Part shown: positions 4,163-7,202 of the stretch, piece after piece
Position numbering within the stretch: position 1 is the first letter of the stretch
Layout: each line of letters starts with the position of its first letter
Source of the DNA: Gammaproteobacteria bacterium
GTDB lineage: Bacteria; Pseudomonadota; Gammaproteobacteria; Steroidobacterales; GCA-2729495
NCBI GenBank assembly: GCA_029245525.1
Contig: JAQWPD010000083.1
Location: forward strand, 1-34,057
Direction of reading: 5' to 3'
Length of the DNA stretch: 34,057 bases
Made by a program: the position numbers and the translations under genes
Notes under the pieces: model-generated
Told to the model about the DNA's origin: nothing
Database searches by the model: none
What the model saw: the letters and a program-made list of their open reading frames with translations, nothing else

Positions 4163-4489
4163 TTAGTGATTCGGACTGCTCAGAACGGCCCGACAGGCGT
4201 CTTGCAGTCTTCCCACCAATGTCGAATCCTGAGTGCTTGCACTAGTACGAATCAGGTCTGTGAGTATGTCAGAGGACAGTAGCGGACCTCTTTCCGGCTC
4301 CTGTGCGGCGATAATCTGCAATAGAATGCCGTTGGTGATATCGCTCTTTGTTGCCTGGTCTTCAACTTTGACGTACTTGCCGGCAAGGATAAGCTGCCGA
4401 ACATCCTGAAGATTGACGTAGCGGCTTTGCGCCGTGTCATAAAGTCGCCGGTTTGCGTATTTCCGGATAAGTCGCAGGTTACCATCCAT
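4163..4489 (-). CDS. phaR: PhaR-like polyhydroxyalkanoate synthesis regulator, short form
   Basis: The N-terminal part (residues about 6-66) carries the PHB/PHA accumulation regulator DNA-binding domain signature: IRKYANRRLYDT, then YVNLQDVRQLI and the DITNGILLQII stretch. In PHA producers this family represses phasin and synthase genes and binds the polymer. I chose the ATG at 4489 (108 aa) rather than a longer frame starting at 4567, because the domain begins directly after it and an AGGGG ribosome-binding site lies about 10 bases upstream. It is shorter than the roughly 180-residue classical PhaR, with only one possible C-terminal repeat. No PHA synthase or phasin gene is in the window, so the target is unknown. 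It is downstream of gluQ on the same strand. Confidence 0.8.
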   Translation of the reverse strand: MDGNLRLIRKYANRRLYDTAQSRYVNLQDVRQLILAGKYVKVEDQATKSDITNGILLQIIAAQEPERGPLLSSDILTDLIRTSASTQDSTLVGRLQDACRAVLSSPNH

Positions 4490-4609
4490 AATATGAACCC
4501 CTGTTTTAATCGCAGGTTGTAGAATTCCGGCGAGATTAATTATCGGGACTGTAAGATCGCCAAACACATATTAAGTTGACACTGTCTTGTGCCACTAAGT
4601 TCGTCCTTT

Positions 4610-5557
4610 TTACTTAAGATGTCCAATTTCAGGTCGTTCCATAACCCCGCGCAGCGTCTCTATAGTCCAGCTATCCCTTGCCCAGAGCCAGATTTCGGCA
4701 ATTCCAGCGTTTTCTAGGTCAACCGGTGGCCGGAGTCCGAGAAACCGCATTCCCCGCACTAAATTGGCCCCGGCGAGCCCAGAATTCAGTTCATCGGCAC
4801 CGCCGCGCTTGGAGAGCTTTTTGCCGCCCTTATCGGTGGCAATAGGAATATGCGTATAGCCCGGTTGAACATAGCCTAAGCATTGTTGCACGTGAATGTG
4901 GCAAGGGGTCGACAAAAGCAGATCGCTGCCGCGAACGACATCAGTGATATTTTGCAGGGCATCATCAACAGTAACCGCTAAGTGATAAGCGGCTAGCCCA
5001 TCACCACGGCGAAGCAGAAAGTCGCCCACATCGTTATACAGATTTAGTTCAGTACGACCCTGTAATTTATCATTGAAGCTAATCGCATGTTCGTGAGTGC
5101 GCAGTCTGATGGCATGTCGCGTATCGAATAAATGTTTTTTTTTGCTGCAGTTACCCGGGTAAATCAGACCCAGAGGGCCGGGCTTTGCCAGCGCTCTGAT
5201 TTGCTTCCGGGTGCAGTGGCAGATATACGCAAGGTCATGGCGATGCAGTTTATTCAGCGCGCTGGCGTATAGGTCTAATCGACTGCTTTGCCATAGGGGT
5301 GCTTCATCCCATTCAAAGCCGTGTGCCTCGAGTGCGCGAAGAATGCTTGTATCGGCACCAGCGACTTCGCGGGGAGGGTCGAGGTCTTCGATGCGCACAA
5401 GCCATTCACCGTGATTGCAACGCGCTTCCAGGTAGCTGGCAATGGCGGTGACCAATGAGCCAAAGTGAAGGGGGCCTGTTGGAGAAGGAGCGAAACGACC
5501 CCGATAGCCTTTATTTTCAGGGGCTTCCGAGCTGTTAGGCGCCTTCTGGTTGCTCAT
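4610..5557 (-). CDS. gluQ: Glutamyl-Q tRNA(Asp) synthetase
   Basis: GluQ activates glutamate and attaches it to the queuosine base at the wobble position of tRNA(Asp). It is a paralogue of the glutamyl-tRNA synthetase catalytic domain without the anticodon-binding part, which fits the 315-residue length. Visible motifs are RFAPSPTGPLHFGSL (HIGH-type, residues 21-35), IEDLDPPR (56-63), zinc ligands C113, C115, Y133 and C137, and KLSKR (247-251, KMSKS-type). It begins 30 bases after the dksA stop, so the two are probably co-transcribed, as in many proteobacteria. QueF, a queuosine-pathway enzyme, is encoded just upstream of dksA. Confidence 0.95.
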   Translation of the reverse strand: MSNQKAPNSSEAPENKGYRGRFAPSPTGPLHFGSLVTAIASYLEARCNHGEWLVRIEDLDPPREVAGADTSILRALEAHGFEWDEAPLWQSSRLDLYASALNKLHRHDLAYICHCTRKQIRALAKPGPLGLIYPGNCSKKKHLFDTRHAIRLRTHEHAISFNDKLQGRTELNLYNDVGDFLLRRGDGLAAYHLAVTVDDALQNITDVVRGSDLLLSTPCHIHVQQCLGYVQPGYTHIPIATDKGGKKLSKRGGADELNSGLAGANLVRGMRFLGLRPPVDLENAGIAEIWLWARDSWTIETLRGVMERPEIGHLK

Positions 5558-5587
5558 TTACAACCGCGGAAAGTCTGCGGCACTGAG

Positions 5588-6616
5588 TTATCGATACCGA
5601 TCGTCATTGTCACGGAATTGCCTTTCCGCAAGTTCACGACGTTCCTGAGCCTCGACCGAAAGTGTTGCTACGGGACGGGCTTCCAAGCGACGCAGACCGA
5701 TTTCTTCACCGGTTTCTTCACAGTAGCCGTAGTCACCTTGTTCAATACGTTTGAGCGTGGAGTCGATTTTTTTGATCAACTTACGTTCCCGGTCACGGGT
5801 ACGCAGCTCTAGTCCAAATTCAGATTCTTGAGTTGCGCGGTCGGTAGGGTCGGGGAAGTTACTGGCCTCATCCTGCATATGGTGCATAGTGCGATCGACT
5901 TCCTGCATCAGTTCGGCCTTCCAGGCCAGCAAAATAGCCTCGAAGTGGTCGAGCTGATCATCATTCATATAGTGTTCGCCAGCCTTCGATTTATAAGGCG
6001 CAATACCATGGATTGCATCTTCTGCATCGCTGAACTGAACGTTGCGTTTACGCTCCGAAACACGGATGCGTTTGGGCGGGGTGGGTTTACTAATTACCCG
6101 CTTGGCTTTCGGCTTTTTAACGGTCTTTTTCTTGGCGACAGGCTTGACCGCACTGACAGTCTTCTTCTTGGAAGCTGTTTTCTTGCTCGAGGCTTTTTTT
6201 ACAACTTTCTTCTTAGAGGCGACCTTTTTGGTGCTTTTTTTCTTCGAAGAGATCTTTTTAACGACCTTTTTCGCCACTTTCTTCTTGGTCACTTTTTTCT
6301 TAGACGGGGCCTTTTTCGCGACCTTCTTCGCCACTTTCTTCTTGGAAGATGTCTTTTTAACGACCTTTTTCGCCACTTTCTTCTTGGAAGATGTCTTTTT
6401 TACGACCTTCTTCGCCGCTTTCTTCTTGGAAGAGGTCTTTTTTACGACCTTTTTGGCCGCTTTCTTCTTAGAAGCCGCCTTTTTCTTGCTCGCAGGTTTA
6501 GGGGCACTCTTTTTGGCTGCTTTTTTGGCAGCGACCTTCTTATTGGCGCTTGCGGCCTTCTTTACAGGCGGTTTCTTGCCCGCTGATTTTTTGGGAGATT
6601 TCTTCCTGGAAGCCAT
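5588..6616 (-). CDS. dksA: RNA polymerase-binding transcription factor DksA with a long Lys/Ala-rich N-terminal extension
   Basis: DksA binds the RNA polymerase secondary channel and, with ppGpp, retunes transcription in the stringent response. Residues about 195-342 form a complete DksA: the coiled coil with the tip motif DPTDRA (D256, D259, A261), then the globular end with GYCEETGEEIGLRRLEARP. Of the four zinc-finger cysteines only C299 remains; the others are T302, S320 and A323, as reported for zinc-independent DksA homologues. Residues 1-185 are very rich in Lys, Ala, Ser and Val and contain a 14-residue repeat resembling histone H1-like and AlgP-type tails. The usual length is about 150. 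The start has AAGGGA upstream and a good promoter. The extension may bind nucleic acid, which is an inference. Confidence 0.95.
   Translation of the reverse strand: MASRKKSPKKSAGKKPPVKKAASANKKVAAKKAAKKSAPKPASKKKAASKKKAAKKVVKKTSSKKKAAKKVVKKTSSKKKVAKKVVKKTSSKKKVAKKVAKKAPSKKKVTKKKVAKKVVKKISSKKKSTKKVASKKKVVKKASSKKTASKKKTVSAVKPVAKKKTVKKPKAKRVISKPTPPKRIRVSERKRNVQFSDAEDAIHGIAPYKSKAGEHYMNDDQLDHFEAILLAWKAELMQEVDRTMHHMQDEASNFPDPTDRATQESEFGLELRTRDRERKLIKKIDSTLKRIEQGDYGYCEETGEEIGLRRLEARPVATLSVEAQERRELAERQFRDNDDRYR
6194..6478 (-). repeat. In-frame tandem repeats encoding the lysine-rich DksA tail
   Basis: This part of dksA (residues 47-141) has repeated codons for units of the form TSSKKKVAKKVVKK. Three adjacent 42-bp units are nearly identical (residues 61-102), and more degenerate copies flank them. 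The same tract on the plus strand is rich in TTC and TTT, which creates long artefactual Phe/Leu-rich open frames. Such repeats can change copy number by slippage or recombination. Confidence 0.9.
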
Positions 6617-6651
6617 GCGGAATCCCTTACTAAAAAGTCTGAAAACGCGGC

Positions 6652-6679
6652 ATTATACATATGCAGCCCTCGTGGTGAA
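6652..6679 (-). promoter_or_regulatory. Probable sigma-70 promoter of dksA
   Basis: On the minus strand, TTCACC (6674-6679) is followed after 16 bases by a perfect TATAAT (6652-6657). A start about 7 bases downstream would leave a leader of about 29 bases before the dksA ATG at 6616, containing an AAGGGA ribosome-binding site. This suggests dksA-gluQ-phaR has its own promoter rather than depending on queF. Confidence 0.65.
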
Positions 6680-6782
6680 GGCTTAATTTAGAGGAGTTGC
6701 TGATTTTGGTGTCTGTCAGACTCTGGACTCAGTCTCAGCATCACGCGGATTTAAACCGTTGAGTGCGCCTGAGGTCTCGTCT

Positions 6783-7202
6783 TTAAGGATTATTAAGTGA
6801 ATTGGTCAAACTGTCTGACAGAGCCCAGTCAGCAGCGGTGTGTTCAGCTACCACCTCAGTATAGACGCCCCCGCGCACATTGAAATCAGCCGTCACCCGA
6901 AGGTATCTGGGGTCAATAGCGGCAACCAAATCCTCGAGTATTGTGTTGGTCACAGCCTCATGAAACGCGCCTTCATTGCGATACGACCAGTAGTAGAGTT
7001 TCAATGCTTTCAATTCGATACAGTGCTCTGCTGGCACGTATTCAAGCCTAATGGTGGCAAAGTCAGGTTGCCCAGTTTTGGGGCAGAGGCAGGTGAACTC
7101 GGGGGTTTCGATCCGAATAATGTAGTCCCGCGATGGGTTGGGGTTCTCAAATGTTTCAAGAACCGTATTTTCTGGCGTTGGCTGCTGCGTCGTTTTTGAC
7201 AT
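6783..7202 (-). CDS. queF: NADPH-dependent 7-cyano-7-deazaguanine reductase (QueF), short single-domain type
   Basis: QueF reduces the nitrile of preQ0 to the aminomethyl group of preQ1, a step in queuosine synthesis. The 139-residue protein belongs to the short (Bacillus-type) subfamily, not the roughly 280-residue two-domain form of E. coli. The motif [14 protein letters not shown] gives the probable nucleophile C40 and proton donor D47. The family motif [16 protein letters not shown] (63-78) and FHEA (glutamate 82, base binding) follow. It is divergent from smc and upstream of dksA-gluQ, and GluQ acts on the queuosine made by this pathway. An AGGG ribosome-binding site lies about 12 bases before the ATG. 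Confidence 0.93.

Follow-up and report, generated by a model that had tools for sequence, protein, structure and literature searches.

The biochemistry cited for DksA concerns the E. coli protein, which has no tail. In Pseudomonas aeruginosa, the zinc-independent DksA2 is a second copy that is produced only under zinc starvation, according to PMC9213440. AlgP and PhaF carry a long disordered Lys/Ala-rich repeat tail attached to another domain; these are C-terminal KPAA repeats, DNA binding in vitro is documented for a C-terminal AlgP fragment and for KPAA peptides, and AlgP localises to polyphosphate granules, as described in PMC9239181. Xanthomonas euvesicatoria dksA was first annotated with 147 aa, beginning near the core, and was later corrected to 256 aa from peptides and start-codon mutants, which gives an experimentally supported N-terminal extension; a processed form was also observed (PMC5559785). 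A longer, processed Xanthomonas DksA is already published in that paper, a point absent from the original prediction, and the tail described here may likewise be clipped off. For this extension, the main text of PMC5559785 holds no word starting with ‘lysine’. The Xanthomonas citri DksA paper mentions a C-terminal zinc-finger domain, and its main text is without the word ‘N-terminal’ (PMC6804348). Titles and abstract openings of the open-licence literature described no lysine-rich DksA tail, a result that does not prove its absence.

In the window, the whole stretch of 34,057 nt that was analysed, the dksA coding sequence lies at 5588..6616 on the minus strand (stop included). As predicted, one uninterrupted frame joins a Lys-rich tail to DksA; it starts with ATG, has zero internal stops, encodes 342 aa and sits in an open frame of 354 codons. 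The protein scored 162.6 bits with the NCBIfam dksA model TIGR02420 (cut-off 115.5) and did not reach the stricter E. coli-type model NF008045 (188.1 vs. 289). In Pfam, its core matched DksA_N (117.8 bits) and zf-dskA_traR (41.4 bits), both above cut-off. Residues 201–334 aligned with E. coli DksA residues 16–149 (PDB 1tjl, E = 3.1e-51), so the extra part replaces E. coli residues 1–15 and the protein exceeds E. coli DksA (151 aa) by 191 residues, in agreement with the unusual length first remarked on (342 against a normal length of about 150). The tail itself (6014..6616, minus strand) is long as claimed, and it counted 201 residues instead of about 185.

The core (5591..6013, minus strand) has the coiled coil, DPxDRA tip, globular domain and C-terminal helix of E. 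coli DksA (TIGR02420; 1tjl). Its coiled-coil tip, DPTDRA, is intact as originally read and has the D-x-x-D-x-A pattern of DksA. Identical counterparts of E. coli D71, D74, R91, L95, K98, and R129 were found, and K139 was replaced by Q, so that three of the four residues that we take to form the ppGpp site in E. coli DksA (L95, K98, R129, K139) are kept. Since the tip aspartates, R91, L95, K98, and R129 are retained, the core is expected to act as DksA. The AlphaFold model (mean pLDDT 56.6) showed core helices at 219–251 and 260–293 with moderate confidence, whereas tail residues 1–200 lacked helices and strands, with block pLDDT values of 46–52. The protein differs from E. coli DksA in its 201-residue Lys-rich N-terminus, in the K139Q exchange and in its zinc site. 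The description of a complete DksA therefore held for the core match and the tip and failed at the zinc site, where three of four zinc cysteines are gone.

The E. coli zinc cysteine positions correspond to C299, T302, S320, and A323, which leaves one of the four cysteines of zinc-binding (C4) DksA. This C-T-S-A set indicates a globular domain and core of the zinc-less type, as in P. aeruginosa DksA2, where the structure that we take to be DksA2 (PDB 4ijj) has a C-x-x-T layout. The zinc-less core is a feature absent from the original prediction. Elsewhere in the 2.28-Mb genome, the zinc-finger family was matched by one further protein, about 116 aa long and encoded on contig C110, so no full-length DksA other than the window protein was found; unlike the second-copy DksA2, the zinc-less form is here the only full-length one, and it is tailed. 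The small protein (L002:1264–1614, 116 aa) is of the zinc-finger DksA/TraR type and has kept its cysteines.

A core tree (138 columns, 204 rows) held 130 tailed, 63 tail-less, and 11 undecided rows. The zinc-less proteins clustered in a single group (64 rows; SH-aLRT 99). The remaining 140 rows were four-Cys, except one whose zinc motif could not be read by the script. Zinc type changed twice on this tree, one change resting on the row with the unreadable motif, and the tail trait changed at least 24 times, a rough figure given the many unresolved forks. Tails were present on zinc-less and on four-Cys cores alike, so possession of a tail is a trait separate from zinc loss. One relative (G051) carries two Lys-rich-tailed DksA proteins (L014 and L066), one zinc-less and the other four-Cys, the four-Cys copy being cut by a contig end. 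The zinc-less loci L272–L276 were absent from the 204-row tree. Among them, L273 and L272, whose DksA presumably resembles that of Xanthomonadaceae, have zinc-less cores and extensions that contain Lys/Ala and carry net charges of +15 and +53, respectively, counted from the first possible start.

The tail contains 41% K, 3% R, 15% A, 17% S+T, and 2% D+E, has a net charge of +84 and is predicted to be disordered from composition and the fold model. A 42-bp tandem repeat (6281..6485, minus strand; 14-aa unit, 4.9 copies) was detected inside it by Tandem Repeats Finder. Its repeats follow a KKxxKK pattern with zero KPAA and stand at the N-terminus, whereas AlgP and PhaF carry C-terminal KPAA repeats; the long disordered Lys/Ala-rich tail on another domain is what they share. 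With HC2 proteins (Pfam PF07382, histone H1-like), the tail shares lysine composition and spacing, and the tail alone scored 28.3 bits, below the 40-bit cut-off. The predicted H1 likeness thus stood for composition and not for Pfam HC2 membership. A whole-genome HC2 search at E 0.001 returned no match in the window’s genome, tail included, and the histone H1-like DNA-binding model NF038053 gave 21 bits against 80. Within the dksA frame of one relative (G040), HC2 matched with 63.5 bits, above the cut-off. In the favoured reading, the tail would be H1-like in its working mode, and not necessarily by descent from H1.

Ahead of the tail, a sigma-70-like promoter sequence (TTCACC-16-TATAAT, followed by GCCGCG) lies at 6652..6679 on the minus strand, and a probable ribosome-binding site, AAGGG (6624..6628, minus strand), precedes the ATG by 7 nt. 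Both stand at the far end of the tail, as originally predicted. A comparison within the order supported the promoter: 36 of 44 same-order loci had a perfect TATAAT 30–60 nt ahead of the start chosen for them, compared with 0.4 in shuffles. The chosen start was the first ATG with a basic stretch after it, and nine loci without such a start were dropped beforehand; the 44 include the tail-less L056 as well as L039 and L059, which are cut by contig ends and in which the chosen ATG is internal. Several relatives showed apparent MYN starts (ATG TAT AAT), which were rejected as start codons because this sequence is the −10 box. The conserved −10 box ahead of the tail indicates that the messenger begins just before it, and the usual distance would put the transcript start some 30 nt upstream of the tail. 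The six bases after the −10 box were 88% G+C in the 36 loci, against 54% in upstream regions (window 6646–6657). A GC-rich stretch at this place is typical of promoters repressed by ppGpp and DksA. It is consistent with the negative autoregulation described for DksA (PMC4370453).

Besides the window’s own genome, 59 relatives of the order were searched, and the main DksA was located in 52. A basic tail occurred at the same place, N-terminal to the same segment of the core, in 47 of these 52 (46 scored by a rule of net +20 and 20% K+R, and G042 added by eye). The tail is therefore not an assembly error, the case named beforehand as fatal to the prediction, since close relatives do carry it. The five located relatives outside the 47 were G002, whose DksA is cut by a contig end; G041, described below; G048 and G049, whose DksA has no tail; and G059, whose tail is weakly basic (+6). 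The clearest absence was seen in G048 (L047), which encodes a 144-aa DksA and has kept TATAAT; the tail is hence dispensable in some cells. In G041 (L069), the Lys-rich stretch and the DksA core stand in different frames within sequence of doubtful quality, which is probably an assembly fault and possibly a real split. Main DksA was not located in seven of the 59 relatives: G034 gave no match at all, and matches in G013, G015, G020, G025, G036, and G038 were short or without DksA motifs, among them zinc-finger proteins without DPxDRA and ELRxRDR in G013, G015, G038, and one of two G020 loci.

A wider sample covered 276 genomes of the class Gammaproteobacteria, 260 of them with a match, ranked by core similarity and scored among the matches listed. 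A Lys-rich tail was present in 61 of 132 scored genomes (the window’s own included) and absent in 71 of 132, among the matches listed. For this count, listed matches with frames of at least 190 aa were read; frames of 171–189 aa and unlisted matches lay outside it, as did G042, G060, G080, G315, and G213, which were unread by the script. The tail-less genomes include 54 with frames of at most 170 aa, nearly all assigned by length alone, and six with long frames that were not Lys-rich by the rule. Tailed examples are Alloalcanivorax, Alcanivorax limicola, Methylohalomonas lacus and a Woeseiaceae genome; the Peristeroidobacter tail is weaker (12% K, net +10), and Microbulbifer, Porticoccus, Methylobacter, and Methylophaga have a short DksA. 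The search for homologues with Lys-rich N-terminal extensions, proposed as a check of the prediction, thus recovered them in the order and the class, and this wide spread is a point absent from the prediction itself. Such tails in many related bacteria suggest a widespread, little-studied form of a textbook stress regulator. Beyond the class, at least six matches from the same phylum exceeded 210 aa (G344, G393, G349, G373, G440, G461). Plasmid (10) and phage (5) rows among those listed were annotated as DksA or had no annotation. Two DksA relatives, L274 and L275 (G069 and G205), are 366 and 379 aa long when counted from their earliest candidate start (GTG), and have a Lys/Ala-rich N-terminus and the tip GDEAERA in place of DPxDRA.

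Selection on the tail was compared between the window and a same-genus genome (G001, locus L054). Over 201 aligned columns the tail showed 75% identity, a dN of 0.19, a dS of 0.66 and a ratio of 0.29, a value from one pair aligned with gaps through the repeat; the core was 99% identical with a dN/dS of 0.02. These ratios indicate that the tail is much freer than the core, yet not free. Its changes fell mostly at Ala, Val, Ser, and Thr, and six columns dropped a window lysine, but the lysine count was kept (82 in the window and 81 in L054). Acidic residues numbered four in the window and 10 in L054. The alignment of this pair contained no Lys-to-Glu change. In this one species pair, selection is shown to keep charge and lysine density over exact sequence. 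Across the order, the composition suggests the same: 46 relatives’ tails (7073 residues) contained 29% K, 8% R, 1.1% D, and 0.6% E, although a single transition turns a Lys codon (AAA or AAG) into a Glu codon. Lysine fell below 20% in 15 of these 46, with Ala, Pro, and Arg in its place, and tail length ranged from 89 to 258 aa, some tails being cut by contig ends, while the sequence varied by genus.

Two readings would deprive the tail of a role, and both are judged by these data. Translation might begin near the core and leave the tail untranslated, as the first Xanthomonas annotation had it, but the peptides and start mutants of that species put the start far upstream (PMC5559785), the promoter with its conserved −10 box and the ribosome-binding site precede the tail ATG, and the tail is under protein-level constraint. 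A mis-called start is very improbable on these grounds and was rejected because the promoter is conserved, the frame is retained and the start has been mapped in Xanthomonas. The tail is very probably translated from its own ATG, as had been claimed. A translated tail might still be near-neutral, a repeat-prone Lys/Ala-coding stretch that lengthens and shortens by slippage and is tolerated by the cell. The 42-bp repeat, the variation of sequence and length (89–258 aa) among genera, two relatives without a tail, at least 24 changes of state, counted on a tree of poor resolution, and an evolution far faster than that of the core all agree with this. Against it stand the ratio of 0.29 with zero Lys-to-Glu changes, the acidic residues below 2% in the 46 pooled tails and the frame kept open in almost all located relatives, and we regard near-neutrality as distinctly unlikely.

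On balance, we lean towards an ordinary secondary-channel factor of RNA polymerase in which a disordered polycation binds DNA or RNA and holds DksA at the nucleoid. From the behaviour of the family, the core would enter the secondary channel via the coiled coil and the D-x-x-D-x-A tip and would help ppGpp to set promoter activity. The tail, a predicted disordered polycation of the same protein, would most likely bind DNA, and possibly nascent RNA as well, in a sequence-independent manner; its H1-type make-up and the DNA-binding AlgP tail fragment and peptides favour such non-specific binding. Binding of this kind would locally enrich DksA around the nucleoid and near polymerases engaged in transcription. 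The tail-less relatives G048 and G049 and the 71 of 132 class genomes without a tail, among the matches listed, weigh against this anchor. So do the origin of the 0.29 ratio in one gapped pair, the 10 acidic residues of L054, the 15 tails with less than 20% lysine, the +6 tail of G059, the missing HC2 match and the processed Xanthomonas form (PMC5559785). If a large share of Gammaproteobacteria carries a polycation of about 50–250 residues, their DksA may depart from the model in location, in affinity for RNA polymerase and in effective concentration. The tail-less G048 with its kept −10 box and the two zinc types are natural comparisons, which makes the role of the tail directly testable.

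Other roles for the binding tail were considered beside the anchor. The tail may be a sensor and not an anchor alone, if DNA, RNA or polyphosphate, by holding it, shifts the N-terminal region that in the E. coli protein restrains its action on RNA polymerase, and so alters DksA activity. It occupies the place of E. coli residues 1–15, E. coli DksA becomes more active and loses its pH sensitivity once its first 18 residues are deleted, and docking models show a clash of the N-terminal helix with the rim helices (PMC4370453). With a tail sequence that varies from genus to genus, gating of any kind would have to rely on charge alone, and we consider such a gate unlikely for this protein. It is rather improbable that many gammaproteobacterial DksA proteins are gated in this way, with free DNA, RNA or polyphosphate setting, through an H1-like tail, their action on RNA polymerase; if true, the stringent response would be coupled to the state of the nucleoid. 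Similarly doubtful is a tail that ties DksA to polyphosphate or its granules during the stringent response. Polyphosphate binding is possible: of four P. aeruginosa proteins examined, two bind polyphosphate through their Lys-rich stretches (PMC12077175), AlgP itself is found on polyphosphate granules (PMC9239181), and the window’s genome has a PP_kinase match (G000:C7). Nevertheless, PP_kinase matched in 41 of 61 tailed and 53 of 71 tail-less class genomes (among the matches listed; Fisher P = 0.44), and 20 tailed class genomes gave no match to the PP_kinase model, the one model used, among the matches listed; a fixed link to polyphosphate kinase was rejected for want of association.

A tether to PHA granules of the PhaF kind was prompted by the adjoining PHB_acc_N (PhaR-like) gene at 4163–4567 (86.3 bits) and by the recurrence of a PhaR-type motif near dksA in relatives. 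In contrast, the assembly of the window’s genome has no PhaC_N match, while 29 of the 60 searched genomes, the window’s own counted among the 60, have one; the tether fails for this genome and is extremely improbable. The predicted storage or tethering tail is thereby weakened in its PHA form by the missing PhaC match, and its fixed polyphosphate kinase link by the P value above. On the minus strand, dksA is flanked downstream by a glutamyl-Q tRNA(Asp) synthetase-like gene, which we take to be gluQ (4610..5557, Pfam tRNA-synt_1c 154.9 bits), and upstream by queF (6783..7202, Pfam QueF 116.6 bits). In the window, queF, dksA, gluQ and the PHB_acc_N gene are grouped within 4163–7202 although the genome has no PhaC match. 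A scan of 182 loci, with duplicates among them and many loci too short to reach the motif, showed the PhaR-type motif in 24, and loci with it usually have gluQ too and often queF.
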